Assembly: GCF_019195455.1 (NCBI RefSeq)
Contig: NZ_JAIMBW010000001.1
Span: 2,418,001 to 2,482,000 of the forward strand
Length of the DNA: 64,000 nucleotides
Source: Gymnodinialimonas phycosphaerae
GTDB taxonomy: Bacteria; Pseudomonadota; Alphaproteobacteria; Rhodobacterales; Rhodobacteraceae
Direction: 5' to 3'
Shown: positions 20,022-63,564 of the stretch, piece by piece
Position numbering within the stretch: position 1 is the first letter of the stretch
Layout: every line of letters begins with the position of its first letter
Program-made: the position numbers and the translations under genes
The notes under the pieces: model-generated
What the model was told of the DNA's origin: nothing
The model's input: only the letters and a program-made list of their open reading frames with translations
Database searches by the model: none

Positions 20022-20098
20022 GGCGGAGTAGCTCAGTTGGTTAGAGCAGCGGAATCATAATCCGCGTGTCGGGGGTTCAAGTCCCTCCTCCGCTACCA
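20022..20098 (+). tRNA. tRNA-Met (CAT anticodon)
   Basis: A 77-base cloverleaf with CCA encoded: acceptor GGCGGAG pairing with CTCCGCT (one G-U at the end), D-arm AGCTCAGTTGGTTAGAGC, a seven-base anticodon loop ATCATAA with CAT in the middle, and a T-arm with GGTTCAAGTCC. Elongator Met is most likely; a tRNA-Ile2 read with lysidine has the same anticodon and cannot be excluded by eye. The 3' half is the insertion site of the element described below. Confidence 0.92.
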
Positions 20099-21671
20099 TC
20101 AATCCCCGACATATTGGGCTTTCGCCGAGAAGTGCTGCCCGGAAACCATCGACCGTGACGTCGAGACCCCGCTCCTTGGGTGTGTTGATCACGGCGCTGA
20201 CCAATTCGCGCAGGATGGCAACAGCATCGCAATTGTCAGGGGCCAAACGTCCGTCAGACAGGTCGGCTAGGGCTTCCAGATATCTCTCTATAGAAGCGGG
20301 ATGGAGTTCGATCACCTCCGGTTCGGTGTCGATGCGCGGTAGAATTGCTTGAGCGGCCTTTACGTCTTCCTGTAGCCGGTGGATCTCGGCTTCTGCTTCC
20401 GGGCCGTCTGTTACGCCTTTGATGTAGAGGGCACGGGCGCGGTCGAAAGCCATTCGGGCTTTCGCTGCTTTCCGTTCCAAACCTGCGCCATTTTGCTTTG
20501 CTTCGCGGTTAAGGCGGGCACGTTCTTTGTGGTATGCCTTGAGATATTTTCGGACATAGACTGGGTCGCGCAACTCTTCGGTCAGCCCTTTGAAGATCGT
20601 TGCCTCGATCCGATCAATCCGCATTTCCGCAAGGTTGGTGCAAGACCCGCTCTCGGTTCGGGTCGAGCAACGGCCCCAGACTGACCCCCCTCGCCTCTTA
20701 GAAATGGCGATACCACCACCACACAATCCACACCTCAAAAGCCCCGAAAAGGGACGCGTGGGACGACTTGGTCCGCGACCGCGACGACCTTTGGTTTGCT
20801 GATGCGCGCGGGACTTGCGTTTCACTTGCACGCTATCCCAGAGGGATTGCGGCACGATCCTGAGATGCGCCGCCGGAACACGGTGCCACTCCGTCGGATC
20901 ATTGACACGACTGACCCGTTTGCCGGTGTCTGGATTCCGCACCATCGTGACGCGGTTCCAGATGATTTCTCCCCGGCAGATGTCGTTGACCAGAATGCCA
21001 TAGCCACGTTGTGCGTTGCCATTGAGCGTTGAGGCATTCCATTTCTCGCCACGCGGAGCGGGGATTCTGTCGGCGTTCAGGGCCGTTGCGATGGTTCGGG
21101 GACTATCACCCGAAGCATAAGCCTCAAAAATCCGGCGCACGACCTCCGCTTCGTGCTCGACAATCGCCAACTCGCCGGGTTTTCCAGCCACGGGCGAATA
21201 GCCATACGCCTTGCCACCGGCGTGTCGTCCGTCACGGATGACCCCGGCCTGACCGCGATGGACCTTCTTGCGGTGGCCATCCATCCAGATCTGCCCGAGC
21301 AATCCGTGGACGCCAACGCTGATGGCATCGGCGGTCCCGTCGTTCACCGTGCGAATTGGAATGTTCAGATACTCAAGTCGCTTCCAAATTCCGGCCAGAT
21401 CGCCTTGGTCTCGGGACAGACGGTCCAGGGCTTCGACGATCACAAACTCGAAGCGCCCCTCCTTGGCCTCCGCCAAAAGATCCTGCATCCCGTCTCGTCC
21501 GATGAGCGTGGCAGATGTGCGCGCCCGATCCACGAAGGTTGCGACGATCGTCAATCCTTCCCGGTCGGCAAGCGTCCGACAAACCGCAACCTGATCGTCG
21601 ACGGATCGATCTCGTTGGAGGTCCGTGGAGAATCTTGCGTAGACGGCTGCTCTTTTTCGGTGCTGGGGCAT
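20055..21671 (-). CDS. Large serine recombinase (element integrase), 3' end inside tRNA-Met
   Basis: A 538-residue serine recombinase. The resolvase-type catalytic domain covers residues ~7-150 with the active Ser at 15 (YARFSTDLQ). A recombinase domain follows (~160-270), then a zinc ribbon with CGLCGGG and two further cysteines (~310-345) and a coiled coil (~370-430). The stop codon lies at 20055-20057, in the anticodon region of the tRNA, so the last ~15 residues (EEGLEPPTRGL) are encoded by the complement of the tRNA. This is typical of an integrase gene next to the attachment site of an element integrated in a tRNA. It probably catalyses insertion and, with a directionality factor, excision. 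Confidence 0.93.
   Translation of the reverse strand: MPQHRKRAAVYARFSTDLQRDRSVDDQVAVCRTLADREGLTIVATFVDRARTSATLIGRDGMQDLLAEAKEGRFEFVIVEALDRLSRDQGDLAGIWKRLEYLNIPIRTVNDGTADAISVGVHGLLGQIWMDGHRKKVHRGQAGVIRDGRHAGGKAYGYSPVAGKPGELAIVEHEAEVVRRIFEAYASGDSPRTIATALNADRIPAPRGEKWNASTLNGNAQRGYGILVNDICRGEIIWNRVTMVRNPDTGKRVSRVNDPTEWHRVPAAHLRIVPQSLWDSVQVKRKSRAHQQTKGRRGRGPSRPTRPFSGLLRCGLCGGGIAISKRRGGSVWGRCSTRTESGSCTNLAEMRIDRIEATIFKGLTEELRDPVYVRKYLKAYHKERARLNREAKQNGAGLERKAAKARMAFDRARALYIKGVTDGPEAEAEIHRLQEDVKAAQAILPRIDTEPEVIELHPASIERYLEALADLSDGRLAPDNCDAVAILRELVSAVINTPKERGLDVTVDGFRAALLGESPICRGLMVAEEGLEPPTRGL
20085..20098 (+). repeat. Putative att core, copy 1 (tRNA-Met 3' end)
   Basis: CTCCTCCGCTACCA, the last 14 bases of tRNA-Met, recurs once in the same orientation at 62820-62833. 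The two copies would bound the integrated element. Identity stops on both sides of the 14 bases. Confidence 0.65.
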
Positions 21672-21784
21672 CTGACTGAACCTCTGGCGTGATCACGACG
21701 CGCGTCGTGCTGCGCGAGGGCACGGACAAATCGCAGGAGGCGTTCATCCTTTTCTTCATGGTCCCTGCGAGGATCATAGGCCAT
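21551..21784 (-). CDS. Small ORF between the DUF2274 gene and the recombinase, uncertain
   Basis: A 77-codon ORF beginning MAYDPRRDHEEKDERLLRFVRALAQHD in a helical, charged style. Its ATG lies six bases after the DUF2274 stop, which would allow translational coupling. The last ~40 codons overlap the start of the recombinase in another frame and look non-coding. I do not recognise a family. It may be a real short protein or chance. Confidence 0.3.
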   Translation of the reverse strand: MAYDPRRDHEEKDERLLRFVRALAQHDARRDHARGSVRCPSTEKEQPSTQDSPRTSNEIDPSTIRLRFVGRLPTGKD

Positions 21785-21790: not shown

Positions 21791-22060
21791 TCAGTCTTGC
21801 GAAGGCTTGTTTTGGAGTGCTGCTTTCTCGGCACCACTTTGCCGCCCGTGCGTTCGCCGCGCGGTGGCAAAGCCGCGACCCGTTGCCATGAAGCGCGCGA
21901 TCATCGGAGCGACGAGTTGAGCGGGCTCTGACTTCTGGCCAGTCTGGCGGGCCAGGACAGTGGCATAGTCGACGAGGTCCCGATGCACGTCGGCAGGAAG
22001 TGCAACCGTGAGTTTCACTGGCTTGTCGTCCGGGATCGCGCTCAGTTTTAGCTTCGTCAT
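21791..22060 (-). CDS. DUF2274 family protein, last gene of the trb operon
   Basis: An 89-residue protein starting MTKLKLSAIPDDKPVKLTV with a LPADVHRDLVDYATVLA segment and PMIARFMATGRGFATARR near residue 60. This matches the small DUF2274 proteins found directly after trbI in trb-type integrative elements. The start ATG overlaps the trbI stop (ATGA). Its role is unknown; a DNA-binding or transfer-accessory role has been assumed from position only. Confidence 0.8.
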   Translation of the reverse strand: MTKLKLSAIPDDKPVKLTVALPADVHRDLVDYATVLARQTGQKSEPAQLVAPMIARFMATGRGFATARRTHGRQSGAEKAALQNKPSQD

Positions 22061-23256
22061 CGTACTTCTCCCAAAGGCTCGAAGATCAGATCGCGGGTGA
22101 TCATCACGCGTACCGGGAAACCGGGGCGGATCGTGAGGCTTGGTGGGACGGAGATCTGTTGCCGGACGATCTCTTCGCCGGTGCGCCCGATTGTACCTTG
22201 GGCCGCCTCGCGGATGGCAGTTGCGACGGCGTTCTCGCTTGGCGCTTCGCTTTCCAGACCGACATTGAGGATCGTGGCGAGGCCTGCGGCAAGGAAGACC
22301 CGGCCCCAATGGTAGTTGACCCGATCCTGCAACCCTGCGGCGCCTGTTCCGTCGGTGCCGGGTTCGCGATTGAGGTTGATTGACCGGCCATCGGGCAGGA
22401 TCAGCCGGGTCCAGACCAGGAGGAGACGGTTCTGGCCCACGACGATATTACTGTCGTATTCGCCGAGGAGCCGCGCGCCTTGGGGAATGAGCAGGTAGCG
22501 CCCGGAGGGGCTGTCATAGACGTTGGAGGTGACTTGTGCTGCGATTTGGCCCGGCAGGTCCGAGCGGAGCCCGGTGACGAGCGCGGCAGAAATGACGGTG
22601 CCGGCCTGGAGGATGTAGGGACTTGGCGGGGACATCAGCCGCTCGGGGCTAACGGGATCGGCGGCATTTCCGCGTGTCAGAAACGCGCCCTGACCAGTTG
22701 CACAGCCTTGGGGCGTGGAGGAGCCCTGCGGCATGGGGCACATGGTTGAACCCAATCGGGCAGACCCTGGGTTTGCACCGCCACCCTGGGACCCGGTCTG
22801 CGCCTCTGCAAAAAGGGCACTCAACCTGGCGGCCTCGATCTCTTGCAGTCGAAGCTGTTCTGCCGGATCGATCCCGGGCGCTGAAATGCCCGTAAGAGTT
22901 GGAATGGGAACCGGATCACCCCGTTCCTGCGCGCTGAGGATGGGCCGACCAAGCTCGCCGGGCAGCGGTGGCCCAAGACGGGGAACATCGCCGTAATTTG
23001 TGGGCAATCGCGAGAGACCTTCTGCGGCCTGAATACGTTCGGTCGAATACAACTCGGATGGAGTGTCGCTGGCCTGACGGCCTTGCAAAGCGACGATGAG
23101 GATGGCGCCAAGACCGAGGCCGCCGGTCGCCACGAACGCAGCGATGGCTTTTCGGGAAAGGCGCATGACGCGCGGTGGGTCAGAGCGGAGGCGGAGATCC
23201 CGGTCAATGTCCTGTTCTTTGCTCAGGCCCTTGGGATCGCTGATTGGAGCTGTCAT
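22057..23256 (-). CDS. trbI: TrbI, VirB10-like type IV secretion channel protein
   Basis: A 399-residue protein with a cytoplasmic N-terminus, one membrane helix (~residues 36-58), a proline-rich periplasmic spacer and the VirB10 C-terminal domain (~200-399), including LLIPQGARLLGEYDS and RPGFPVRVMITRDLIFEP. It appears intact. It spans inner and outer membranes in the conjugation channel together with TrbG and TrbF. It overlaps trbG by four bases. Confidence 0.92.
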   Translation of the reverse strand: MTAPISDPKGLSKEQDIDRDLRLRSDPPRVMRLSRKAIAAFVATGGLGLGAILIVALQGRQASDTPSELYSTERIQAAEGLSRLPTNYGDVPRLGPPLPGELGRPILSAQERGDPVPIPTLTGISAPGIDPAEQLRLQEIEAARLSALFAEAQTGSQGGGANPGSARLGSTMCPMPQGSSTPQGCATGQGAFLTRGNAADPVSPERLMSPPSPYILQAGTVISAALVTGLRSDLPGQIAAQVTSNVYDSPSGRYLLIPQGARLLGEYDSNIVVGQNRLLLVWTRLILPDGRSINLNREPGTDGTGAAGLQDRVNYHWGRVFLAAGLATILNVGLESEAPSENAVATAIREAAQGTIGRTGEEIVRQQISVPPSLTIRPGFPVRVMITRDLIFEPLGEVR

Positions 23257-24239
23257 CTCACCTGGCCCTCCGCATCGTCTGCGCCTGTCCGTCGGTGCAC
23301 GATGCCGTCCATCCGCACGATCCGGACCACTTCCTGCCGGGCCTCACCCAGCCTGAGTTCTGCGGCCCCAAATAGCCGGTCGACGATCAGGACATTGCCC
23401 GTAACGCGGGTGTTGACGATCTGGCCCTGGCCGTCCGGTCCGATCACGAAAAGAGGCGGCATTTCACCTTGGGCGATGCCGGTTGGGAAAACGACGTAGA
23501 CCTGGCGGCCATCGTCGAAGACCGCAACCGGTCGCCAGGGTGGGCTGTCACCTTGCAGACCGTAGCGATAGTTCCGGTCCACCTCATGCGGGATGGTCGG
23601 GCGCATCAGGGTTGGCAGGCGCGGGCGTGTCGGCTCTTCGGGATAGGCCCAGGCGACGGCGGGCATCCAGATCTCTTCGCTGGCGCGCAACTCGATCAAG
23701 TAGTTGCGCCGGTCGGTGCTGATGACGAGATTTGTGGTGATGTCCGGAAGCGTGGGTTTGACGAGGACATGGACGCGGGCGGTTCTCCCTGCGCCGCTGG
23801 TGGTGTCGCCGATGATCCAGCGAGCGGTGTCGCCTGCTGCGATAGGGCCGGGACCGGTCAGTTGTTCGCCCGCCTCCAGCGTGATCGTCGTGATCTGGCC
23901 GGGGGCGGCATAGACCTGATAGAGCGCGCCTTCGCTCCAAGGGAAGACCTGCAGGGCATTGTAGTAGCCCTCTGGGCGCGGCTCGACGCGTGCGGCGGCG
24001 TTGGCGGCTGCGATCCGGGCCTCTGGCGTTTCAGCCTCGGGGTCGCCCCCTCGGGAAGGGGTCCATGACGGCGGGATGTGGACCGGACGCAGAGGATCTT
24101 CCGCCGGAGGAGGTGGCGGAGGAGGTGCGAGGGTCGGGACTATGTCGTCGTAGGCGATCTGTGGCGGAGGTTCATTGGCGCAAGCCGTTAGGACGGTCGT
24201 TGCGAGAAGAAGACAGGATAGGGTTCTGAGATGGGTCAT
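23253..24239 (-). CDS. trbG: TrbG, VirB9-like outer-membrane channel component
   Basis: A 328-residue protein starting at ATG 24239 with a lipoprotein signal (lipobox LTAC, Cys at residue 20), a proline-rich linker (~35-60) and a VirB9-type beta domain ending near ELRLGEARQEVVRIVR. The longer open frame upstream is only antisense or overlapping DNA. It overlaps trbF and trbI by four bases on each side. Looks intact. Confidence 0.92.
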   Translation of the reverse strand: MTHLRTLSCLLLATTVLTACANEPPPQIAYDDIVPTLAPPPPPPPAEDPLRPVHIPPSWTPSRGGDPEAETPEARIAAANAAARVEPRPEGYYNALQVFPWSEGALYQVYAAPGQITTITLEAGEQLTGPGPIAAGDTARWIIGDTTSGAGRTARVHVLVKPTLPDITTNLVISTDRRNYLIELRASEEIWMPAVAWAYPEEPTRPRLPTLMRPTIPHEVDRNYRYGLQGDSPPWRPVAVFDDGRQVYVVFPTGIAQGEMPPLFVIGPDGQGQIVNTRVTGNVLIVDRLFGAAELRLGEARQEVVRIVRMDGIVHRRTGADDAEGQVR

Positions 24240-24919
24240 TGGGCACTCTCCCTCGACCAGTTGATGGCATGGACATAGACACCAAGCGGGTTCTGACGCA
24301 GGCGCTCGGCATCGCGGGGCGGTTGGATGACGATGGTGAGGATAGCGGTCCAGCGTTGAGTGGCGGCCAGCTGGCCGTTCTCGTAGCGCCGCTCCATCCA
24401 AGCGACGCGGAAGCTGGAGTCGGAGGCGCGGATGACACTGGAAATCTCGATTGCGATCTGGGTCTCGCCGACGGCCGCGAATGGGTCGTTCACCCGTGCA
24501 TAGTCGTTGAGTGCTGTAGCGCCGCGATCCGTGGTGAAATCGTAGGCGCGAAGCCAGCTTTGGCGCAGCACGATCGGGTCTGTGGGAACCTGCCGGACAT
24601 TCTCGATAAAACGTGCCAGATGCCAGGCAATCTGCGGGTCGGTGGGTTGGTAATCTGCGAGCGCGGGCGCAACAGCCTGCGCCGCACCAAGATTGTCGAC
24701 CTCGACCACATACGGAACGACAGAACTCTGCGTTGATTGCCAGATGAGCGTTACACTCAACCCGGCGACCAGCGTGAGGCAACCATAGGCCATGAGGCGC
24801 CAGTTACGGGCTTGGACGCGGGCGGAACCGATGCGGTCGTCCCAAGCTTGCGCCGCCCTCTGATAGGGCGTGACGGGCACGGGGGTGGTAGAGTAGCGGA
24901 CTGTTGGACGTCGGAACAT
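24236..24919 (-). CDS. trbF: TrbF, VirB8-like assembly factor
   Basis: A 227-residue protein: short cytoplasmic N-terminus, a membrane helix at ~43-63, then a VirB8-type NTF2-like periplasmic domain with VVPYVVEVDNLGAAQAV. The start is ATG at 24919, two bases after the native trbL stop codon (24922-24924). It appears intact although the genes upstream are broken. Confidence 0.92.
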   Translation of the reverse strand: MFRRPTVRYSTTPVPVTPYQRAAQAWDDRIGSARVQARNWRLMAYGCLTLVAGLSVTLIWQSTQSSVVPYVVEVDNLGAAQAVAPALADYQPTDPQIAWHLARFIENVRQVPTDPIVLRQSWLRAYDFTTDRGATALNDYARVNDPFAAVGETQIAIEISSVIRASDSSFRVAWMERRYENGQLAATQRWTAILTIVIQPPRDAERLRQNPLGVYVHAINWSRESAQ

Positions 24920-24921
24920 GG

Positions 24922-25987
24922 TCAGGATCTCTCCGATAGGCTGACGGCTGATCCGCCACCGCCATGATCGCCGGAGCGGATCACATGGGCGGCGGTGCTT
25001 ACGCCGTGATGGATGGATTGCTGCTGCTTCATGCGACGGGCCCAAGCGGGCGGGCCAGCGGTCGCGGTTGATGCGGTGGTATGGCCGGCATGACTGCCGC
25101 CGGTGGCGGCGTAGGCGGCGCGCGCGCCAGATTAGGCGCTCTCCGCAATCGAGCGTCGCAGCGGGTTTGTCGCGGCCACAACTCCGGCCTTTCCGATTGC
25201 GGCAACGCCTCCTGCAGCCTTTCCAGCCATCGTAGAGCGCGGTGCCGACCCGAGCTGATAGGCCGTGGATGCTCCTCCGGCCATCGCGCTTGCGCAACGG
25301 ACGCCAGCACCCGCCACTCCAAGAGCCATGCGTCCGGCGGCGGCACCACCAACTGCGAGGCCGCCCGCCGCAACGGCCGTTCCGACGGCGCTGCCCGCGC
25401 CAAGTTGCGGGCCACCCGAGACGATCCCGTTGGCGATGCCGGGGCCGAAGATGCCCAAGGCCAGAAGTCCCAAGGCACCCAGAACGACGGACATGGCATC
25501 TTCGATGGTGGGCTCCCCGGCAAAGCCGAAGGTAAAATCCCCGAAAATGGTCGAGCCGATGCCGACTATGACGGCAAGGACGAGAACCTTCACTCCGGAC
25601 GAAATGACGAGGCCGAGGACGCGTTCCGCCATGAAGGCCGTCTTGTTGAAGAGGCCGAATGGGACGAGGATGAAGCCTGCGAGGGTAGCGAGTTTGAATT
25701 CGATTAGCGTGACGAAGAGCTGGATCGCGAGGATGAAGAAGGACAGCAAGACCACGAGCCAGGCGAAGAACAGGATCGTGATCTGCAGGAAGTTCTCGAA
25801 GAACGACACGAAGCCAATGAGGTCGGAGATTGAGCAAGGATCGGGCGACCGGCGTCCATTCCGACCTGCGCGATGCGGCCCGGTTGCAGCAATTCGTCGG
25901 CGCTGATCATGCCGCCGGTGGCCACCAGCCCGAGGCCTGCAAAGCTGTCGAAGACGGTCCGCGCGAGCGTGTTCCAATTGCCGATCA
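24922..25987 (-). pseudogene. trbL: trbL (VirB6-like) remnant: 5' deleted, frameshifted and with a premature stop
   Basis: Homology to TrbL begins abruptly in the middle of the protein (GNWNTLARTVFDSFAGLGLVATGG, in part) directly after the trbE fragment. Near 25830 the TrbL reading shifts by one frame: the upstream frame reads DAGRPILAQ and the downstream frame SISDLIGFVSFFENF. The second frame covers the membrane core (~25800-25250). It then meets an in-frame TAA at 25132-25134, yet the same frame continues with a typical TrbL tail (GPPAWARRMKQQQSIHHG) to a TGA at 24922. So the gene carries at least three lesions and cannot make normal TrbL. Confidence 0.85.
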
Positions 25988-26249
25988 GGTAGTCTCGCGC
26001 CGGAATCCGCTGCGCTTCGACGAAGACGGCCCACCCTGAGCCAAGCCGACGCAGCGCGCTGTTGAACCGGGCCGATGTTGCGACCAGCTCGGCGGGCGTG
26101 GCGGAATCGAGATCGGGACCGCGAAACCGGGCAGAGCGTTGGAGGCTGCCATCCTTATTCAAGACTACTCCGTGCGCGACGAGTGCGGCCCACGGTAGGA
26201 AATCGGCCAGGAGGGCGGATTTGGAGCGATATTCGGCAAGGTGCATCAT
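25988..26249 (-). pseudogene. trbE: trbE (VirB4-like) 5' remnant fused in frame to trbL
   Basis: Starts at ATG 26249, four bases after trbD. About 87 codons match the TrbE N-terminus (LAEYRSKSALLADFLPW; VVLNKDGSLQRSARFRGPDL). The rest of trbE (normally ~800 codons with Walker A and B), all of trbJ and the first part of trbL are missing; the frame runs straight into trbL sequence. The breakpoint is at about 25988. No other VirB4-like ATPase is present in the window. Confidence 0.88.
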
Positions 26250-26253
26250 CGGA

Positions 26254-26526
26254 TCACACCCCGAACCAGGAGGGATAGCGCAGATGCCGCCGCGCAACTT
26301 CGGCGATTTGCGCGTCTCGCTTTGCAAGCCAGACCGCGAGGAGATGGCCGACAAGCCAGAACAGGAGGCCGACGATCCAAAGGCGAAGCCCGAGGCCAAC
26401 CGCAGCGGCCAGCGTGCCATTGGCAATCGCGATGGCGCGTGGTGCGCCAGCCAGCAGGATCGGCTCTGACAGAGCGCGATGCACGGGCGCGTAGAAGCCG
26501 GGAATATTGGTGGAGGGGTCTTGCAT
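26254..26526 (-). CDS. trbD: TrbD, VirB3-like protein
   Basis: A 90-residue protein with the family start IPGFYAPVHRALSEPILLAGAPRAIAI followed by two close membrane helices (~residues 30-65) and a basic tail. ATGA overlap with trbC. VirB3-like proteins sit in the inner membrane beside the VirB4 ATPase, whose gene is destroyed here. Confidence 0.9.
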   Translation of the reverse strand: MQDPSTNIPGFYAPVHRALSEPILLAGAPRAIAIANGTLAAAVGLGLRLWIVGLLFWLVGHLLAVWLAKRDAQIAEVARRHLRYPSWFGV

Positions 26527-26849
26527 CAGATCAACGCCCCGCCGCCAAAGGAGAAAAAGGACAGAAAGAAGCTCGACGCGGCGAAGGCGATGGTGAGTCC
26601 GAAGACGATCTGGATCAGCCGCCGAAACCCTCCGCCTGCATCGCCAAAGGCCAGAGTAAGTCCGGTCACGATGATGATGATCACGGCCACTATCTTGGCG
26701 ACGGGCCCCTCGATCGACTCGAGGATCGATTGGAGTGGGGCCTCCCACGGCATGCCGGATCCGGCGGCCATAGCGGGGTCGGCGAATGTAAGTGCGACGG
26801 TCGCCGCGAGCGCAATCAGGAGATGGCGGGATACTGGCGAGACTGTCAT
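26526..26849 (-). CDS. trbC: TrbC, VirB2-like pilin
   Basis: A 107-residue prepilin with a signal peptide (cleavage near AMAA, residue ~29) and two hydrophobic helices (~48-68 and ~78-102), as in VirB2/TrbC. Overlaps trbB and trbD by a few bases. Intact. Confidence 0.92.
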   Translation of the reverse strand: MTVSPVSRHLLIALAATVALTFADPAMAAGSGMPWEAPLQSILESIEGPVAKIVAVIIIIVTGLTLAFGDAGGGFRRLIQIVFGLTIAFAASSFFLSFFSFGGGALI

Positions 26850-27829
26850 GGACGATCTCCATGGGGTTGGGTGAGAAGCTGTTCGACGGAGTAGTCGCCT
26901 GCGGCGGCCAAGCCGGTGACGCGGGCAAGCTCAGACAAGCGCCGATCTGCACCTCGGCCTGTGACCACCGCGACGAGATCGATGGTTTCCGCAATGAGGG
27001 CGCGGGGAACGGTTACGACGGCTTCCTGGATCAGCTGTTCGAGGCGGCGGATCGCGCCCATGGCGGTCCCGGCGTGGATCGTTCCGATGCCGCCGGGATG
27101 CCCAGTGCCCCAGGCCTTGAGCAAATCAAGCGCCTCCGCGCCGCGGACTTCCCCGATTGGAATGCGGTCGGGTCGAAGCCGAAGAGACGAACGCACGAGG
27201 TCCGACAGGGAAGCAACCCCGTCCTTCGTGCGGAGGGCGACCAGATTGGGGGTAAGGCATTGAAGTTCGCGGGTGTCCTCGATCAGGACCACGCGATCTG
27301 TGCTTTTGGCGACCTCGGCCAGCAACGCATTGGTCAGCGTCGTTTTGCCGGTCGACGTTCCGCCGGCGACAAGAATGTTGGCGCGACCGGCCACTGCGTC
27401 TCGCAACTTTTGCGCTGCGTGTGATGTCATGATCCTGCTGGCGACGTAATCCTCAAGCGTAAACACCGCGACAGCAGGCTTTCGGATCGCGAATGTCGGG
27501 GCCGCGACAACGGGTGGCAGAAGTCCTTCGAACCGTTCTCCCGTCCCGGGCAGTTCGGCAGAAATCCGGGGGGAAGCGCTATGGACCTCCGCGCCGACAT
27601 GATGTGCGACGAGCCGAATGATCCGCTCGCCGTCCCTCGGAGAGAATTGGGTGCCTGTATCTGACATCCCATCCGACAGGCGATCGAGCCAAATCCGACC
27701 GTCCGGGTTTAGCATCACCTCGACGACGGACGGGTCCTGAAGCCAGGTGGCGATTTTCAAGCCAAGCGCGCTTCGCAGCATTTGGGTACTGCGGGTGGCG
27801 AATTCAGGTTTGAGTGGGGTCACAGTCAT
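26846..27829 (-). CDS. trbB: TrbB, VirB11-like secretion ATPase
   Basis: A 327-residue hexameric ATPase: N-terminal domain to ~residue 140, Walker A GGTSTGKT at 156-163, Asp-box/Walker B region [10 protein letters not shown] (~180-190), and His-box GTIHAG (~247). Intact. In related elements trbB follows copG within a few bases. Here copG is 15.6 kb away because the phosphonate cluster lies between, so trbB may have lost its native promoter. Confidence 0.94.
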
Positions 27830-28129: not shown

Positions 28130-28479
28130 GATCGGTCAATTCGCCATCACGAAGTATCGCCGCGTCAGCGCACGAAAAACGCCTTTTCTGGCCGGGTTTT
28201 CACGTCATCGCCACGTAACAGATTCGAGTTATCCACAGGTTGAAAAGGGCAATTCGAGCAGAAAAAATGGAACACGTTACACCGATTTATCACTCGGCGC
28301 TGCGTTTCTTTACCGGGTCGCCGGAAGCTCTGTGTTCAAGGGCGTGGCGCCACAGAAATCGTTTTGCGTCCCGCATATTGATCCGGCTTGTGGGCCAGAA
28401 GCATTGCCAAGTAAGCTATGGATGGTGGCAAGGGCGGGTTTGACGCAGGCTGCCAATAATCTAGCGCCTTGCGCTCTGA

Positions 28480-28695
28480 TTACGTCGTGCGCGCAGCCTG
28501 CTGTGTTTTTGCGGCAATCCAACTCTCGATTTCACGACGCGAAGCACCTGCGAATTGCTGCTGAGACTTAGGTTTGATTGTGTGTTTTCGAGGGTCGAAG
28601 GGACCAGGACCCCGGGCGCCGTCTTTCTTCACCCACACAGCAGCGATTTTTCCCGCTTCATCCAATTCAGCAACGTAAATGTCCGTGATCCCACT
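28480..28695 (-). pseudogene. Possible remnant of a small unidentified protein
   Basis: The frame is open from 28695 and reads GITDIYVAELDEAGKIAAVW and then FDPRKHTIKPKSQQQFAGAS before stopping at 28480. It has a protein-like composition, but there is no ATG or GTG start in frame (only TTG at 28665), so it is probably a 5'-truncated fragment. I do not recognise the family. Confidence 0.3.
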
Positions 28696-28861
28696 TCAAG
28701 CGTCTGTAACATTTGCATGACACTATTGGGCTGGCTCAGATTCGAAAAGCAAACGATTGAGGGGCGACACATGGCCCAATCCGGGCCTGGTTGCATCCAT
28801 GGAGCGGAGCCACACCAAATGGGCGCCCATCATTGCCCGGCGATGCCTCTCAGAGCAAGTC

Positions 28862-29485
28862 TCAGGAGTCGGATTTCGCGTATTTCTCGATGAACGCGGC
28901 CAAAGACAAAGCTCTGAAGTCGGGAATGGCTGCAGCAAAGCGGTCATGGGACCAATCCCACCACGAGATGTCGAGAAGCGCTTCTTCCTCAGCCGGAGTG
29001 GCGCGTCGACGGATCACTTTCGCAGGAACCCCACCGACAATCGTGTAAGGGGGCACGTCTTTCGTCACCACTGCGCCTGCGCCAACCACCGCCCCGGTGC
29101 CGACGCGGACGCCCGCCATGATACTGACCCCATGACCAATCCAAACGTCATGCCCGATCGTGACCCAATGATCCTTACGCCATTCGAAGAAATCGGCTTC
29201 ATCCTCGCCAAACCCGTACATCGAGGCCCGATAAAGCGCATGATGCTGGCAGGCGCGCCAGGTTGGATGATTGCCGGGGTTGATCCGGACGTTGTTGGCG
29301 ATGTTGGTGAACTTGCCGATTGTCGTCCAGATCACATGGCCGAAATCGCAGATGTAGGAATAATCGCCCATTTCGCAGGCGGTCAATTTGGTTAACCTTC
29401 CCACCTCGGTGTAGCGGCCCAGTGTGACATCGCCGCCGACCTCTGCCTCCGCATGGATGGTCGGCGCCTCGGTGAGTTTCTTCAT
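28862..29485 (-). CDS. Phosphonate-cluster hexapeptide-repeat acetyltransferase
   Basis: A 207-residue left-handed beta-helix transferase of the group linked with phosphonate operons. Hexapeptide repeats are seen at residues ~15-60 and again at ~110-155 ([37 protein letters not shown]). It starts at ATG 29485, overlapping the phnE stop. No GNAT-type phnO is present; this enzyme could N-acetylate aminoalkylphosphonates in its place, but that is inference from position. Confidence 0.82.
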
Positions 29486-41350: not shown

Positions 41351-41354
41351 GACC

Positions 41355-55307: not shown

Positions 55308-55359
55308 GGTCGCACCCCCCGCACCGAACAGGTGTGAGGGGGCTGGAAGCAGGCAGCGA

Positions 55360-56616: not shown

Positions 56617-56717
56617 TTGCAAGATCCTTTCTATCAGCGCCCGCGCCTTGAGGTCATATGCCCAGAGCAAAGCCTGATGTCGTTGAAACAGGTGTGACAA
56701 AGCTTTAGCGCGTGCCA

Positions 56718-56746
56718 ATGAACCTGAGGCAACGGGGCGGTAACAG
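56718..56746 (-). promoter_or_regulatory. Candidate Pho box upstream of the PotD-like gene
   Basis: On the minus strand, CTGTTAC, CCGTTGC and GGTTCAT start at 11-bp steps. The middle heptamer is identical to that in the phnD site and the distance to the start codon (~102 bp) is almost the same. The ~460 bp region between this gene and the next one holds no gene I can support. Confidence 0.55.
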
Positions 56747-57080
56747 TTTTTAAACATGCGCGGTTTGCCACCGGCGATGTCGGACGCGCAGGCGGGATGC
56801 CGCGCTGTCATCTTTTGTCACCCCTGCCCATTTCAGGACGAAATGCGAATTGCCGACCATCGGATGCAGCAGGTGCAGGCGCGGGCGGCGACCCTGGCCG
56901 GGATCCCGCCCCTACCCCCGAGGACCGGCTGAAAGTGTGGATGCACCATACCTTCTACGGATCGCTCATTCGCAGCCATGCAGGCCGCCACCAGACAGGA
57001 ACCTTTGCCGCGCCCCATGCCAGACTTGTGGGGCACCTTGCGGCTCTGTCCGGGTGGCACAAGGGTTTGGCAGCGCGCTT

Positions 57081-58151
57081 TCAGTCCAGCCGCAAACCGG
57101 TGTATGCATCGAAGAGGTGGAGGTCATCGGGATCGAAACAGACCTCGACAGGATCGCCTTTGGACAGTTGGCGCTTGTCCGGTGTGACGATGGGCACCGT
57201 TTCGCCAGCAACCCTTAGATGGTGCAGGCGGGCATTGCCTAACTCCTCGCTCAGTTGATGCGTGGCGGTCAGCGTCGCGCCAACCATGCCGAAGCGCAAC
57301 GCCTCGGGCCTGATCCCCACGACCACAGCCGCCCCATCGCGCAGGTGTTCCGAACGACCCGGCAACGCGATCTGCTGCCCGTCGGACAATAAAATCGTCC
57401 CAGCCTCACCCCAGTACGTCGCCGGAATGGTGCCCATGGAGGGAGAGCCGATAAAGCGCGCGATATACAGCGAGCGAGGCGTCTCGTAGACCTCTGACGG
57501 CGTGCCAACTTGCTGGATTTCGCCGTCGCGCATGACCACCAGTCGGTCGGCCAGCGTCATCGCCTCGACCTGGTCGTGGGTGACATAGACCGAGGTTGCG
57601 CCCACATCCTCGTGGATCCGCCGGACCTCGTGGCGCATCTGGACCCGCAATTCGGCGTCGAGGTTCGACAGGGGCTCATCGAACAGAAACACCGATGGCG
57701 ACCGGATGATCGCGCGTGCCATGGCGACTCGCTGGCGCTGACCACCGGATAATTCACTCGGCTTGCGGTCCAGCAAGCCGTCCAGTTGTACCAGTTTGGC
57801 GGTTCGCTCGGCCCGGCGTCGGCGCTCGGCGCGTGGCAGGCCCTCGACCCGGAGGGAATAGGCGATATTCTCGGCCACGGTCATGTGTGGATAGAGCGCG
57901 TAATTCTGGAACACCATGGCGCAGCCGCGATCCTTTGGCTCCAGCCCCGACACCTCGGTCTCACCGATCTGGATGGAACCTGCGGACTTGTGTTCCAGCC
58001 CGGCGATCAGGCGCAGGAGGGTGGACTTGCCACAGCCAGAGGGGCCGAGGATGACGACGAATTCGCCGCCACGGATGTGCAGATCGACTCCCTTGAGAAT
58101 GTCAGTCACACCGAAAGCCTTGCGAAGGCCCGAGAGGGTTATGTTGGTCAT
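57081..58151 (-). CDS. ugpC: UgpC/MalK-like ABC transporter ATP-binding protein
   Basis: A 356-residue ATPase of the CUT1 class: Walker A GPSGCGKST at ~36-44, signature LSGGQRQRVAMARAI (~131-145), Walker B FLFDEPLSNLDAELR and a regulatory C-terminal domain (VVGIRPEALRFG). The start is ATG 58151 rather than a TTG at 58166. It lies 76 bp after the UgpB-like gene on the same strand and serves the permeases encoded divergently. Confidence 0.88.
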   Translation of the reverse strand: MTNITLSGLRKAFGVTDILKGVDLHIRGGEFVVILGPSGCGKSTLLRLIAGLEHKSAGSIQIGETEVSGLEPKDRGCAMVFQNYALYPHMTVAENIAYSLRVEGLPRAERRRRAERTAKLVQLDGLLDRKPSELSGGQRQRVAMARAIIRSPSVFLFDEPLSNLDAELRVQMRHEVRRIHEDVGATSVYVTHDQVEAMTLADRLVVMRDGEIQQVGTPSEVYETPRSLYIARFIGSPSMGTIPATYWGEAGTILLSDGQQIALPGRSEHLRDGAAVVVGIRPEALRFGMVGATLTATHQLSEELGNARLHHLRVAGETVPIVTPDKRQLSKGDPVEVCFDPDDLHLFDAYTGLRLD

Positions 58152-58227
58152 ATCTGCCTGATCCAAAATACGATTGGCCGGAGGAACAACGCCCCCCCGG
58201 CCAATGCAGGTAGTCCGCCCGTGCGGC

Positions 58228-59472
58228 TTAGTTGGCGGCGATCATCTCGCGCATCTGGTCCGCAAAGACGCCAAGTGCCTCTTCGGCGGTCTGCTCGCCC
58301 AGAACAATGGATTGCCATACCGCGGGCTCTTCTGAGCGGATCGCGGGCATTGCAGGCGGGCGAGCACGGCCAAAGCCCACTTCCAGCTGGGTGTTGGCGA
58401 CGAGATACGCGGGGTATTCCGCAATGGTTTCCTGCGCCAGATCGGTCTCGATGGCCCCCTCTACAATCGGCAAATAGCCGGTGCGCACGAAGACGAAGGC
58501 GTTGTTTTCCACGGTCGTGACATATTCGATAAATTCCCATGCGCCGTCCTGAACCTCCTGCGGGGCAGAAGCGACGATACCGAGCGTTGCGCCGCCGATT
58601 GGCGCGGCACAGACTGCCTGACAAGGCAGCGGCGCCACGCCGAGATCAAACGGCAGGTTCTCCAAATTTCCGGTCAAGCCACCGGTGGAGTTAAACTCGA
58701 TCGCTGCCCGGCCAGTATCGAAATACTGATCGCCCACGTCCTCATCCAGCGCTGCCTCGAGTGAAGCCACGCCATGCACGTTTACCCAATCGGCAGCGTA
58801 TTGATACGCCATGATGGACTCCGGCATGTCGATCTGCACCGCGTTGTTGACTGGGTCAACCCAGCCACCGCCAGCCTGGTTGGTCATCGCCCAACGCACC
58901 CATTGCGGCGGGGTCACAATGCCCCACTGCATCACGGTATCGCCGTCGCGTATCGTCAGCGCTCGCGCCAGCTCGGTCACTTCGTCCCAGGTTGTCGGCG
59001 GCGCATCGGGGTCGAGGCCTGCGGCGCGGAACAGGTCACGGTTGTAATACATGACAGGGGTGGAAACGTTGAAAGGCAGCACATACGACTCGCCCAGATA
59101 ACGCGACGCATCGAGCGCGAAGGGACGAATGCGGTCCGTCAACTCAGCCCCTGCGGCGTCCAGATAGGGCTGCAAGGGCGCAAGCGCACCGCGGTCGGCA
59201 AAAAGCCCATAGCGCGTGATTTCCAGCATGACGAGGCCCGGCGCAGTGTTGCCCGCAATGGCAGCGGTCAGGCGCTGCGTGCCTTCGGTATAGTTGCCAG
59301 TGTAGACCGGGACGATCTGATAATCGCCCTGGCTTTCGTTGAACATCGCGGCCAATTCGTCGACAGCGGTGCCGTTGTTGCCGCTGAAGGCGTGCCAGAA
59401 TTCAACCTGGGTTTGGGCATGACCGGCGGTGGCCGCCAGGCAAAGCGCAATGGCGCAAGTTGTCAGTCGCAT
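58228..59472 (-). CDS. ugpB: UgpB-like ABC substrate-binding protein
   Basis: A 414-residue periplasmic protein with signal peptide (cleavage after GHA, residue ~19) and the SBP_bac_1 pattern QVEFWHAFSGNNGTAVDELAAMFNE seen in glycerol-3-phosphate binding proteins. Divergent from ugpA with candidate Pho boxes for both directions between them. The ligand is probably glycerol-3-phosphate or a glycerophosphodiester, given the phosphodiesterase gene in the cluster. Confidence 0.85.
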   Translation of the reverse strand: MRLTTCAIALCLAATAGHAQTQVEFWHAFSGNNGTAVDELAAMFNESQGDYQIVPVYTGNYTEGTQRLTAAIAGNTAPGLVMLEITRYGLFADRGALAPLQPYLDAAGAELTDRIRPFALDASRYLGESYVLPFNVSTPVMYYNRDLFRAAGLDPDAPPTTWDEVTELARALTIRDGDTVMQWGIVTPPQWVRWAMTNQAGGGWVDPVNNAVQIDMPESIMAYQYAADWVNVHGVASLEAALDEDVGDQYFDTGRAAIEFNSTGGLTGNLENLPFDLGVAPLPCQAVCAAPIGGATLGIVASAPQEVQDGAWEFIEYVTTVENNAFVFVRTGYLPIVEGAIETDLAQETIAEYPAYLVANTQLEVGFGRARPPAMPAIRSEEPAVWQSIVLGEQTAEEALGVFADQMREMIAAN

Positions 59473-59521
59473 GAGAAGGTCCCCGAGTTTGGTTAATTCC
59501 CAAAAACGGTAGCGAGGCAGC

Positions 59522-59539
59522 GTAACACTCCGATGACCG
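59522..59539 (-). promoter_or_regulatory. Candidate Pho box for the UgpB-like gene
   Basis: On the minus strand, CGGTCAT and GTGTTAC are 11 bp apart, about 50 bp before the start codon. A third in-phase heptamer, TTATCAC, precedes them. Confidence 0.5.
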
Positions 59540-59553
59540 TTGTGTGATAAACG

Positions 59554-59571
59554 ATGTCACGCGTTCGTCAC
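59554..59571 (+). promoter_or_regulatory. Candidate Pho box for the UgpA-like gene
   Basis: ATGTCAC (59554-59560) and TCGTCAC (59565-59571) are 11 bp apart on the plus strand, 35 bp before the permease start. It is very similar to the site before phnM copy 1. Confidence 0.6.
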
Positions 59572-59605
59572 GCAGTTGATACGTTCGGATGTGTAAGTCA
59601 CTGAG

Positions 59606-60475
59606 ATGACGCGCCTCAGCCCCTACCTGTTCGTTTTGCCCGCCTGCCTGATCCTGGGGCTCTTTGTCTATTGGCCGATCGTCTATTCCGTTTGGCTAAG
59701 CGTGCACCGCTGGGATTTCCTGATGCCGCAACCAGAATTCATCGGCGCGCGGAATTACGTTGTCATGCTGACCAGCGGGCAGTTCCAGAACGCGCTCTGG
59801 AATACCGTTCTATTCACATTGATTTCCGTGCCGCCGACGCTGGGTCTCGCCCTTGCGGTGGCGGTGCTCGTCGCGCCGCCTACTCGGCCCAACCGTCTTT
59901 TGCGGTCAGTCTACTTCATGCCGACGGTGATGTCGGCGGTCGCCATCGGCGTAATTTTCGACTGGATGATGAATACCGAGATCGGGACATTCAACCGGGT
60001 GTTGAACGCCCTTGGCTTGCCTGCGGTGCGTTGGCTCAGCGATCCGGATGTGGCGTTGTTTTCGCTCGCCATCGTCGAGGTCTGGAAGCAGTTTGGCTAT
60101 TCGGTCGTGATCTATGCCGCAGCCCTTCAGGCGATCCCTACGGCGCTTTACGAGGCCGCACGAATGGACGGTGCACGCTCGTGGCACCAGTTCCGTGACG
60201 TGACCTTTCCGCTGGTCATGCCGACGACTTTCTTCCTGCTGATCCTGTCGGTCATAAACGGTTTCCAAGTCTACACCTTCGTAGAAGTGATGACCCAAGG
60301 CGGCCCCGCGCGAGCGACGGAGGTAATTCTTTATTACCTGATCCGCGTCGGCTTCGATGGTGCAAATGTCGGGCTTGGGTCGGCTGTCGCGTTGTTCCTC
60401 TTTGCCTTGTTGATCGGGATCACAGTTCTGAAAATCGTCACCATCGGGCGGAAGGTGCATTATGGCTACGATTGA
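59606..60475 (+). CDS. ugpA: UgpA-like ABC transporter permease
   Basis: A 289-residue CUT1 permease with six helices and coupling loop LYEAARMDGARSWHQFRDVTFPLVMP (in part) near residue 190. The start is ATG 59606. It overlaps ugpE by 14 bases. Confidence 0.9.
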   Translation: MTRLSPYLFVLPACLILGLFVYWPIVYSVWLSVHRWDFLMPQPEFIGARNYVVMLTSGQFQNALWNTVLFTLISVPPTLGLALAVAVLVAPPTRPNRLLRSVYFMPTVMSAVAIGVIFDWMMNTEIGTFNRVLNALGLPAVRWLSDPDVALFSLAIVEVWKQFGYSVVIYAAALQAIPTALYEAARMDGARSWHQFRDVTFPLVMPTTFFLLILSVINGFQVYTFVEVMTQGGPARATEVILYYLIRVGFDGANVGLGSAVALFLFALLIGITVLKIVTIGRKVHYGYD

Positions 60476-61328
60476 AAGTGCGGCGGGCGTTGTCGTGACC
60501 CCCTCTGAACGCGGCGGCATGCGCGCGCCACTCAGAGTGCTGTTCCTAGGGTTTCTCGCTTTGGTCGTGCTTTATCCGCTATGGGAGATCGCCCGGATTT
60601 CCTTTCTGAATCCTGTTGAGGTCAACGCAGCCGACGCGCGCTTCTGGCCGCCGACCTTTCGCGCCTATGTCGAGGCATGGACAGGCGTGTCATTCCCGCG
60701 CTATTTCATCAACTCGGTCGTGGTCACGCTGGCCGTGACGCTGGGCAGCACGGTCACGGCGATTCTCGCGGCCTATGCCTTCGCGCGGGCCGAGTTCCGG
60801 GGCCGTGATCTGTTGTTTCTGGCCGTTATCGGCACACTGATGATCCCCAACCACATCACGCTAATCCCCAACTATCTGACCTTCGCGCGGTTCAACCTGC
60901 TCAACACGTTTGTTTGCCTGATCGTGCCTTTTCTCGCCTCGGGTTTTTCGGTGTTCTTCCTGCGCCAGCATATGCTGACGATCCCCCGCGCGCTGGACGA
61001 GTCGGCGCGGATGGACGGGGCGAGCACGGGAATGATCCTGCGCACGATCATCGTGCCGCTGTCTTGGCCCGCGATCGCGGTGGTGGCGCTGTTCGCGTTC
61101 ATGGGCCAGTGGAACGAGTTCATCTGGCCGTTGCTCGCCACCACCTCCGACGATATGCGCACGATCCAGATCGGATTGCGCTACCTGCTGCGGGACCAAG
61201 AGGGGGCTTTGCCGGATTGGCCCCTGGTAATGGCGGGAACCATGATCACGCTGGTGCCGTTGCTGATCGCCTATGCCGTGGCCGAGCGGCACCTGATCCG
61301 GGGCATCACAATGGGATCGTTCCGATGA
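60462..61328 (+). CDS. ugpE: UgpE-like ABC transporter permease
   Basis: A 288-residue CUT1 permease, partner of the UgpA-like protein. The coupling loop is near residue 180 (LDESARMDGASTGMILRTIIVPLSWP, in part). It overlaps the downstream phosphodiesterase gene by four bases. Confidence 0.9.
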   Translation: MATIESAAGVVVTPSERGGMRAPLRVLFLGFLALVVLYPLWEIARISFLNPVEVNAADARFWPPTFRAYVEAWTGVSFPRYFINSVVVTLAVTLGSTVTAILAAYAFARAEFRGRDLLFLAVIGTLMIPNHITLIPNYLTFARFNLLNTFVCLIVPFLASGFSVFFLRQHMLTIPRALDESARMDGASTGMILRTIIVPLSWPAIAVVALFAFMGQWNEFIWPLLATTSDDMRTIQIGLRYLLRDQEGALPDWPLVMAGTMITLVPLLIAYAVAERHLIRGITMGSFR

Positions 61329-62077
61329 CCGACATCGCATCACATCGCGGCGGTGCCGCGATCTGGCCCGAAAACTCGCGGCTTGCCTTCGAAGAGACAG
61401 CAAAACTTGCTGTCGAGCAGATCGAATTCGACGTGCAACTCAGCGCCGATGGCGTCCCCGTTATCTTTCACGACAGCGACGTCGCGCGTGTGACCGATGG
61501 CACGGGCCAATTGGTTAACAAGACCTTGGCCGAGATCAAGGCGTTAACGATCTCCAACGGCGGAGGACAGATCATGACCTTGGCCGAGGGGTTGGAATTG
61601 CTGGCGCCAACTCACCTCTTGCTGCGTTGCGAGATCAAGCCGGGGCCCGAGATTAGGCCCTATCCGGGCCTGCGCGAGGCAACAGTGGCGATGATCGCAG
61701 CCAATCGACTGCTGGATCGCACGGTTCTGACCTCGTTCCACCTGCCGACATTGGCCGCGCTGGCGGATGAGCGGGTGGCAGCGAAAGACCTGATCTGGCT
61801 GGTCGCCGATCCGATCATGCGCCTGACCTCGCCAGAGGCGGTGGCTCATCTCGCACAAACATCCGGGATAGATCATGTCGCGCCGCACCATCTGTCGCTA
61901 CGCGACGGGATGCTGGACATGCTTCGTGACAAGGGGCTGACCGTTGGCGCCTTTGCAGTATTGGAGGATGAAGCGATTGTCTGGGCGCTGGAAAACGACC
62001 TTTCGGTGTTCACAACGGATCGCCCCAACTCGGCGGTGGTGATCCGAGATCGATTGGTGCGCGGCACTGGTGCCTGA
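61325..62077 (+). CDS. Glycerophosphodiester phosphodiesterase (copy 2, UgpQ-like)
   Basis: A 250-residue GDPD: SHRGGAAIWPENSRLAF (~6-22), EFDVQLSADGVPVIFHDSD (~35-53) and a late LSVFTTDRP segment. Cytoplasmic, translationally coupled to the UgpE-like permease. It hydrolyses imported glycerophosphodiesters as UgpQ does in enteric bacteria. Only distantly similar to copy 1 at 51707. Confidence 0.91.
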   Translation: MTDIASHRGGAAIWPENSRLAFEETAKLAVEQIEFDVQLSADGVPVIFHDSDVARVTDGTGQLVNKTLAEIKALTISNGGGQIMTLAEGLELLAPTHLLLRCEIKPGPEIRPYPGLREATVAMIAANRLLDRTVLTSFHLPTLAALADERVAAKDLIWLVADPIMRLTSPEAVAHLAQTSGIDHVAPHHLSLRDGMLDMLRDKGLTVGAFAVLEDEAIVWALENDLSVFTTDRPNSAVVIRDRLVRGTGA

Positions 62078-63564
62078 GGGCACTTGGCGAGCTAGGGTCG
62101 ACGCTGCAGAATGCTCCTGTGCCGAAGGCAAACACCTCGTCTGAGAGTTGCCTGCATCACAGGCATGCAGGACACTTCAACCAAGGACAATGGTCCGGGA
62201 TCCGAAGGATGCACCCGGAAGAAGCTTGGTCCGCTTGAACTGTCTCGCATCCTTTATGGAGAACGAACCCGCCCCCAGCCGCCAAGTCAGTAGTGTCGCC
62301 GAAGGGCCCAACGGTGGCAGCACTGGAAGCTGCAGCCGAAAAATTGTGATACGGTCTTCCGAGAAATGTTCAGGGGTTTTCGTTGCAATTCGCTCAGATC
62401 GCATTGTATGCGGCAGCCAAGTTGCGAACATCTGATTGCAGGAACGGATGCCGATCTTGGCCATGCGGGGTTTCCACCGACCGTCCTGTCAAAAAGCTTC
62501 ATGCCGTTCGAAGCAGAGGAGGGATTTGGCAATTAGGCGTTTTTTCAGCAAATTCTCTGCCAGCAAGCGGACGCCCACCCATAGGACTTGTTTTATGATC
62601 AGCCAATGATTGTTGACAGAGTGCCACCCTCTCATGCCTCCGCGTCGTGCGACTGAAATAGACGAAACTCCATCGAGCATGCATCCGGTGCGCCAAGCCC
62701 ACCTGAAACGTTCGAACGATTTGTAGCTACCTTTCTTCGTTTTCGATCGCTAAATTCCTCAGAGCTCCCAGTCAAAAAGGTATCTTCCTGAACTGAAGTA
62801 TCGGGAATTGAATAGAACGCTCCTCCGCTACCAGTTCACCTACTAAAAACAACACCTTACCAATATCGGCGCGCGAACCATGTCTCGAAATGATGTGTGT
62901 GGGTGACATTTGGATGCCAAAGTTACTGCGTGAGTCGAGACAAGAACCCACACTTTCAGAACGCTGCATGCCTACAGTGGCAACATACTTGAAGGAAGTT
63001 CTTGGATATACCGAGGTTGCGCGGCACCACTGAAACAGTCCACCACAGGCCAGAAAACGGGCAATCATTTGGGGTCATGACTTTCCGAGCAATGGGCCCT
63101 TCCGGGACAGATGAACCACTTCAGGACAGACCGGCCCATATCCCGCGCTCTTCAGCAGAGCAGGTCAATGCCTTTGATGCATGCGCTTTTCGCATTCAAA
63201 GCTTCTTGATTCCTTGTCGCCAATCGAGAGATTTTCTTGAAGAGATGTTCGAAACGGCAATTGGATAAATAATGATTCACCATCCCTTCATATATTTGTA
63301 AGGATCGAAAATTGGGGCCGGTCCAGATCCCCGTCGTCACGATTTAGAACGATCAAGCCAGACATCTCTAGAAGGAAAGAATTCCAAATTCCGAACACGT
63401 CACATCCAATTATTTCATTCCGGATCGAATGTTCTTCAGAATGCACTCATGGAAAAAAATGCTTGAGAAGGCTTTGGATTTCTCTATCACTTCATCAGGT
63501 GATCGCCTGATCGACCCGGGCGCTGGACCTGTGCTTGCCATGAAAAGGGAAAGGTCAATGGAAA
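62078..63564. other. 1.5 kb AT-richer region without genes, containing the right att-like repeat
   Basis: No frame on either strand shows a recognisable protein or the codon pattern of the neighbours, and the DNA is visibly richer in A and T than the rest. It contains the second copy of the 14-bp tRNA repeat at 62820. DNA left of that point would belong to the element, DNA right of it to the original chromosome. Confidence 0.6.
62820..62833 (+). repeat. Putative att core, copy 2
   Basis: CTCCTCCGCTACCA, identical and in the same orientation as the 3' end of tRNA-Met at 20085-20098. In a circular form of the element the recombinase frame would continue from here for about 15 codons to a stop at 62772, which would give a different C-terminus. 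Confidence 0.65.

Follow-up and report, generated by a model that had tools for sequence, protein, structure and literature searches.

A probable defective, composite integrative and conjugative element with predicted organic-phosphorus cargo at a tRNA-Met gene of Gymnodinialimonas phycosphaerae

How did genes for the use of phosphonates and glycerophosphodiesters come to lie among broken conjugation genes beside a tRNA-Met gene in the rhodobacterial species Gymnodinialimonas phycosphaerae? The locus occupies ~42.7 kb of the window analysed here, a 64,000-nucleotide stretch (positions 2418001-2482000 of contig C1, NZ_JAIMBW010000001.1) of a 4.32-Mb genome labelled G000, of which 163 kb were examined. 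This sequence was compared with a genus set of 13 genomes, G000 included, and a family set of 394. The locus is very probably a defective, composite integrative and conjugative element (ICE) that was integrated by a large serine recombinase (LSR) and carries an organic-phosphorus cargo. An earlier sequence-only reading had recognized a trb-type integrative element at tRNA-Met, its organic-phosphorus cargo and its right end, and in these respects it holds; its account of how the cargo arrived does not.

The last 14 bp of the tRNA-Met gene form the left attachment (att) core, and this 14-mer, CTCCTCCGCTACCA, has one further copy in the window, at 62820, where a far-end repeat had been proposed. 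The element accordingly spans 20099-62833, plus the common core at 20085-20098. The recurrence exceeds chance because the 41 bp ending at 62833 are 93% identical to the far end of a sister ICE in G005; in the 1.8 kb preceding these 41 bp, G000 has no other match to G005. An LSR occurs at tRNA-Met in four of the 13 genus genomes, namely G000, G005 (LSR 91% identical), G001 and G004 (46–48%). The G005 element runs for ~97 kb to another copy of the 14-mer; ~0.2 kb past that copy begins a stretch in common with G002.

Joined at the core, the LSR end and the right arm form a predicted attP that reads as an inverted repeat about a GAG/GAG centre in G000, G005 and G004, with 14/24, 14/24 and 20/24 matches, respectively, at the common centre. 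With the centre fixed, right ends drawn at random within each element equal the attP value 0, 1 and 0 times per 5000, and the attL and attR sites score 5 and 5 (G000), 5 and 9 (G005) and 7 and 11 (G004). Support is weaker if all centres are allowed (80, 67 and 0 times per 5000), and the GAG/GAG centre was first found on the same three sites that were later scored. Taken with the match to G005, the predicted attP supports 62833 as the right end. Such an attP is a feature of large serine integrases, as are the Resolvase, Recombinase and Zn-ribbon domains of the LSR and its Ser15, presumably the catalytic serine, which is invariant in 15 aligned sequences. The LSR is read over 538 residues without stops, and the left core and the attR arm are both present. 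The LSR and both att ends look intact, so that excision may still be possible; the earlier claim that the island has lost its mobility stands for conjugation.

The conjugation genes named in that reading are indeed present: trbI, trbG, trbF, trbC and trbB, pieces of trbL and trbE, traG, and a relaxase gene of the rlxS/DUF3363 type. This backbone is 85–86% identical to that of G005 at the nucleotide level in three stretches of the window (19969-25991, 25990-27988 and 43437-48604). Relative to G005, G000 has a 3.48-kb deletion at ~25990, which also spans the expected place of trbJ, whose loss is assigned by position only since the G005 open reading frame (ORF) there has no Pfam match. Complete mating-pair formation genes are thus lacking (TrbE is truncated, trbL is frameshifted and the presumed trbJ place is deleted), and the relaxase gene is split between two frames, in agreement with the decay noticed earlier. 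In G004 and G001 the same genes, including those for TrbE, TrbL and RlxS, align over the same or nearly full length. The elements of these two genomes (L049-L052) have a G005-like trb backbone that is inverted relative to an LSR only 46–48% identical to that of G000, and their recombinase module looks as if exchanged at the same tRNA. A clade LSR also lies beside trbB, trbC, trbL, trbF and trbI at a tRNA-Met in Methylocystis silviterrae (L244), so the pairing of LSR and trb genes extends beyond the Rhodobacteraceae.

Homology to the G005 backbone is interrupted in the slot between trbB and traG, where it breaks at 27988 and resumes at 43437, the gap being filled by the phn cassette. The C-P lyase set and phosphonate importer reported earlier are there in full (phnC, D, E, E, F, G, H, I, J, K, L, N and two phnM): PhnG, H, K, L, M and N score above NCBIfam cut-offs, and PhnI and PhnJ are assigned by Pfam, completing the phnGHIJKLM core. 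The two phnM paralogues lie on both sides of a xylose-isomerase-like gene. In G005 the slot holds a GreAB-C/PIN-type pair (L039:58-6376), perhaps a defence system, for which PADLOC returned a weak LmuA match alone; the slot measures ~7 kb in G005 and G004 and ~40 kb in G001. Cassette ends agree within ~12 bp in G000, G004 and G009, the three genus genomes (of 13) with phnI, and the G004 and G009 copies are away from the tRNA-Met slot. Across the family, phnI was found in 186 of 394 genomes (E <= 1e-150).

A second mosaic join follows the lytic transglycosylase gene, where a block of importer genes occupies the place of ~13 kb of backbone in the three sister ICEs. Relatives of ten proteins from the next 12.6 kb of G005 occur in G004 and G001, and none matched the 163 kb of G000. 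Both importer operons described earlier, each with a glycerophosphodiester phosphodiesterase (GDPD) gene, were found, and both GDPD genes adjoin ATP-binding cassette (ABC) importer genes; UgpC scores 457.6 bits against a cut-off of 432 and UgpB 156.3 against 411. In the first 10 kb of this 14.2-kb replacing block, no syntenic counterpart appeared in the 12 other genus genomes among the matches listed, which were at most ~660 bp long and 76% identical and fell on two ATPase genes. An endonuclease-family gene of the block occurs in eight of 394 family genomes, G000 included. A relative of this endonuclease lies with an att-like site of three mismatches, possibly by chance, on contig C152 (5.7 kb) of G244, where an Rfam search gave no match. 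Two candidate features were rejected in this part: the permease ORF at 48284-49447 is not an ICE fusion protein, as the similarity of its N terminus to the sister ICE runs antisense to the transglycosylase gene, and the stretch 61340-62131(-) is not a broken GDPD gene, as the GDPD is encoded on the plus strand.

Features of the element, in window coordinates.
Feature	Position	Strand	Remarks
tRNA-Met (CAT), insertion site	20022..20098	+	left att core at 20085-20098, the final 14 bp
LSR, 538 aa	20055..21671	-	last 13 codons and stop antisense to tRNA
Small ORF	21797..22060	-	kept in sister ICE (83%)
trbI	22057..23256	-	full length
trbG	23256..24239	-	full length
trbF	24239..25045	-	full length
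trbL remnant	24925..25991	-	first 84 residues gone, rest in two frames
trbE remnant	25989..26432	-	residues 3-150 of 890
trbC	26526..26849	-	aligned over 87/107 residues
trbB	26846..27829	-	full length
phn cassette	28243..43197	.	81% nucleotide identity to G009 over 15 kb
Phosphonate-associated hexapeptide transferase (TIGR03308)	28862..29512	-	
Phosphonate importer phnE, phnE, phnC, phnD	29482..33098	-	
Pho-box-like site	33410..33426	+	phnD/phnM intergenic
phnM paralogue 1	33493..34644	+	
Xylose-isomerase-like TIM barrel protein	34644..35483	+	
phnM paralogue 2	35480..36673	-	
Cassette ORF	36639..37319	-	no family match; relatives in G009, G004, G259, G393, G108
phnN, phnL, phnK, phnJ, phnI, phnH, phnG	37322..42427	-	
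Pho-box-like site	42478..42494	-	phnG/phnF intergenic
phnF regulator	42494..43222	+	
ICE backbone ORF beside traG	43485..43919	-	90% in G005
traG coupling protein	43925..45937	-	full length
rlxS relaxase, frameshifted	45941..47780	-	residues 1-263 in one frame, 236-614 in another
Lytic transglycosylase	47932..48624	-	backbone homology stops at 48604
Importer block with GDPD	48605..56811	.	GDPD 51707-52528(-)
Endonuclease/exonuclease/phosphatase-family protein	50634-51767		within first importer block
Ugp-like importer	57081..62077	.	ugpC(-), ugpB(-), two permeases(+), second GDPD(+) within ORF 60914-62077
Pho-box-like site	59555..59571	+	ugpB/first permease intergenic
attR	62801..62833	+	inner arm 62801-62819 and 14-bp core 62820-62833

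The recombinase gene runs into the tRNA-Met gene, as had been observed, and its stop codon lies inside it. In the integrated state the protein ends VAEE-GLEPPTRGL, read antisense through the tRNA, while the end predicted for the excised circle is VAEE-RSIQFPILQFRKIPF. In this clade the LSR frame continues across attP, and copies at tRNA-Met therefore end in tRNA-antisense residues. In a first set of 36 loci, a tRNA-Met lies close to the LSR end in 26, with overlap in 24; of the two without overlap, one has an early stop and the other ends 24 bases short of the tRNA. Eleven of the 24 share the tail VAGVGFEPTTFRL, and we take their tRNA, from one sequence seen and general knowledge, to be initiator-type. 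A second set comprised the best 80 named loci of at least 564 relatives. Here the ORF terminates within tRNA-Met at 58 loci: 52 use the same frame, four another (RTPD...) and two end otherwise. Each of the 52 same-frame ORFs has a TGA stop, and in 50 this lies 44 bases from the 3' end of the tRNA, antisense to U33-C34-A35 at the anticodon. Of the 22 remaining loci, three have the tail and no predicted tRNA and 19 are of other kinds; four of the 22 are at contig ends.

Different tails were found on relatives that appear not to be integrated. The LSR of the free Rhizobium phage RR1-A, with phage genes on both sides, ends VAGE-RFEQSPQIILGRFVA; that of Microcystis phage Mae-JY30 ends VAEV-RSNPSPPFRFGVIAA, although its apparently free state is less certain because the record begins at the stop codon; and a candidate free form on plasmid pWSM1497 ends VAGE-GYRQFTAATEFVC. 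Loci L196, L212 and L246, apparently also free forms, have other tails. Six free-type relatives score 12 (RR1-A), 18 (Mae-JY30), 11, 11, 11 and 12 at the att centre, compared with 8 both for pMpar-1 and for a plasmid copy of integrated type; in most of the seven relatives counted as free-type (18, 12, 12, 11, 11, 11 and 8) the best repeat is not at the common centre. The evidence for a change of tail with integration state thus comes from comparing relatives, not from one strain. A survey of Sinorhizobium meliloti, as far as its available text goes, places RR1-A-like prophages mostly at tRNA-Thr, where nearly all integrases are tyrosine recombinases, which weighs against RR1-A as a free-form case; the same text does not deal with the serine integrase of RR1-A itself (PMC11476347). 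A locus of Mesorhizobium norvegicum (L217) joins a free-type-looking arm (VAEERHRQDP) and a tRNA-derived tail in one ORF.

We favour, with fair confidence, the explanation that reading into the tRNA is a passive outcome of an attP that overlaps the 3' end of the gene and has no role. Frames that stay open through the antisense of a tRNA are common, and the use of another frame at four of the 80 loci means that the tail has no fixed sequence. Against passivity, the overlap is kept across LSRs only 35–40% identical to that of G000 and is seen at CAT tRNAs of more than one type. More speculatively, the clade LSR might use the attP in its own 3' end to sense integration state, the swap altering its stability or direction. 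It is similarly a tentative suggestion that the two states differ systematically, the integrated tail being short and stopped at the anticodon and the excised tail, drawn from the other arm, being different and usually longer. We considered a degradation tag on the free-form tail, -LAA being a mark of ssrA-type tags, and found the case weak: two of nine free or predicted-free tails end in -AA (the predicted G000, G005 and G004 tails, L196, L212, L246, RR1-A, Mae-JY30 and pWSM1497). Among the top titles listed from the open-licence literature, none concerned an LSR C-terminus read from a tRNA gene, which is weak evidence of absence.

The boundaries and joins described above suggest the following history for the composite element. 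An ICE of RlxS/TraG/trb type would have entered the chromosome at the 3' end of tRNA-Met when its LSR recombined attP with attB. The trbB-traG slot would then have gained the 15-kb phosphonate cassette (C-P lyase and PhnCDEE), and the distal backbone past the transglycosylase gene would have been replaced by the two glycerophosphodiester importer blocks. The 3.5-kb trb deletion and the trbL and rlxS frameshifts would have ended self-transfer, leaving a chromosomal region predicted to serve organic-phosphorus acquisition.

The sequence-only reading had instead proposed that the whole set moved as one phosphorus island, an ICE that came with its phn and GDPD cargo preassembled and lost transfer later. 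Both cargo blocks are related to phosphorus, lie between one att pair and are served by similar Pho-box-like sites. We consider this history improbable, since slot contents differ in the three sister ICEs and phn clusters occur without transfer genes elsewhere. The latter were sought in 12 genomes (G004, G009 and the ten best family genomes listed after G000, with G302 taken for G270), in stretches of 20–40 kb round phnI in 11 and 102 kb for G009; in G108, phnG is 0.45 kb from a contig end. In none of the 12 did trb, traG, rlxS or LSR genes lie beside the phn cluster (E <= 1e-15, 30% identity, 40% of query). The overall phn gene order of G000 recurs in five of them (G004, G009, G310, G259 and G393) and differs in the other seven. 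In addition, the GDPD block stands in place of the backbone of the sister ICEs, its first 10 kb lacking the syntenic counterpart noted above, and among genomes with both positions listed G000 alone carries its LSR and phnI <100 kb apart on a single contig, a count limited by the many fragmented assemblies and by positions being listed for part of the 186. Assembly of the cargo in a donor before arrival is compatible with these data.

A pattern of TGTCAY-N5-TGTCAY with at most one mismatch, the second of two known Pho-box patterns that we applied, has five matches in the window compared with 0.73 expected, a number reached in 0 of 100 shuffles, and no further match in the examined 163 kb. Three of the five, at 33410, 42478 and 59555, are in divergent intergenic regions of the cargo. 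Both phn intergenic regions contain a match in G009, G004 and G310, one does in G259 and neither does in G393; in the remaining seven genomes the phnG/phnF region has no match (six testable) and phnD and phnM are not comparably arranged. From these motifs, the organic-phosphorus region is probably under PhoB control.

Several observations weigh against the composite, defective ICE and its proposed regulation. GC content is alike in the element and its flanks (0.61–0.64), although the LSR/trb/phn part has a reduced GC at third codon positions. The frameshifts could be sequencing errors, which would less easily explain the trb deletion. The stricter Pho-box pattern tried first shows no enrichment (4 matches versus 3.43), and two of the five matches to the second pattern (28706 and 62903) are not at cargo promoters. 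An empty site with the same right flank, in which tRNA-Met would be followed directly by the serine hydrolase region as had been predicted, is absent from all 11 other genus genomes in which the site was located (in G006 it was not, the best flanking-gene match possibly being a paralogue). Finally, a second attP-like site with both half-sites lies at C1:2508599-2508631 (~90600 in the window frame), 27.8 kb right of the right end, and implies a longer history of the locus.

This site underlies another alternative, that 62833 is an internal att site of a larger island whose integrated tract reaches ~90600 or beyond; sequence <20 kb from tRNA-Met in G009 and G011 stands >80 kb away in G000, as such an island would explain. 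We think this doubtful, because the core of the second site is scrambled (CCTCTCC versus CTCCTCC), whereas the 14-bp core at 62833 is intact, and a search of the G000 genome showed no clade LSR next to the second site.

We thus retain 62833 as the end of the composite element, at a tRNA-Met locus that appears from its varied contents to be an accretion hotspot. Eight genus genomes carry other contents after the tRNA (G002, G003, G007, G008, G009, G010, G011 and G012), and in the DNA following it (0.7 kb in G007, 11–18 kb in the others) they share no common piece >250 bp. Tandem copies of the tRNA end occur in G002 and G008, and a longer repeat lies 32.6 kb away in G012. At such a hotspot the empty-site comparison has no clean answer. 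The serine hydrolase expected past the right end does exist (Beta-lactamase family, L006:3565-4743, ~63565 in the window frame), but in none of the other genus genomes with a located site does this flank adjoin tRNA-Met. A conserved chromosomal right flank was accordingly ruled out: DNA beyond 62833 has scattered genus matches, none beside tRNA-Met, and the 9.7-kb G002 flank adjoins a tRNA-Met element only in G005, being elsewhere at other places or fragmented. On the left of tRNA-Met, G009, G010 and G008 (L044, L045 and L047) share ~7 kb of DNA between a CoA synthetase and a GntR gene.

Parts of this arrangement resemble known systems. Tn4371-family ICEs likewise combine an RlxS-type relaxase, TraG, the trbBCDEJLFGI order and cargo in the transfer region (PMC2789088, PMC11448139). 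They are described with a tyrosine recombinase and an 8-bp attB, TTTTTCAT, neither of which is found here, where an LSR acts at the 3' end of tRNA-Met (PMC2789088). Their variable region precedes traR-traG, whereas the present cargo lies between traG and trbB, so that trb does not directly follow traG but is separated from it by the ORF at 43485 and the phn cassette (PMC2789088, PMC11448139). The trb ICEs of Mesorhizobium also use tRNA sites, including met-tRNA, but the accessible survey data give tyrosine integrases in 73 of 79 elements (PMC8627217, PMC9973854). One of these elements, ICEMspB4-1-4, carries two phosphonate-catabolism clusters, so phosphonate catabolism as ICE cargo is already published (PMC9973854); it is tripartite and 626 kb long, unlike the 42.7-kb defective mosaic with C-P lyase and GDPD importers described here (PMC8627217, PMC9973854). 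The single paper listed on this point from the open-licence literature does not deal with C-P lyase as ICE cargo.

Paracoccus phage vB_PamS_Pami6 has a serine recombinase at tRNA-Met(CAT) in the Rhodobacteraceae, so this pairing is also already published; it is a phage, not an ICE, and the accessible portion of its description mentions no C-terminal read-through (PMC6536676). In the integration-dependent immunity of mycobacteriophages and Gordonia phages, attP is within a coding sequence and integration state sets the C-terminus, as described in that literature for a repressor with an ssrA-like tag and tyrosine integrases (PMC5559632). Here attP lies not in a repressor gene but at the 3' end of the serine integrase's own gene.

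The integrase tail is more of a surprise than the rest of the locus. The att sites of serine integrases are often hard to predict, as in the Paracoccus survey, whose available text gives a predicted site for only one serine-recombinase phage (PMC6536676). An integrase ORF that ends at the tRNA-Met anticodon would be a signature locating both the insertion site and attL for this class, and should the tail swap prove to have an effect, the enzyme would contain its own integration sensor. For the cargo, the trbB-traG interval is a defined slot that can be surveyed in other genomes, and the locus suggests that a nutrient-scavenging region can arise by cargo swapping within an ICE that no longer moves.

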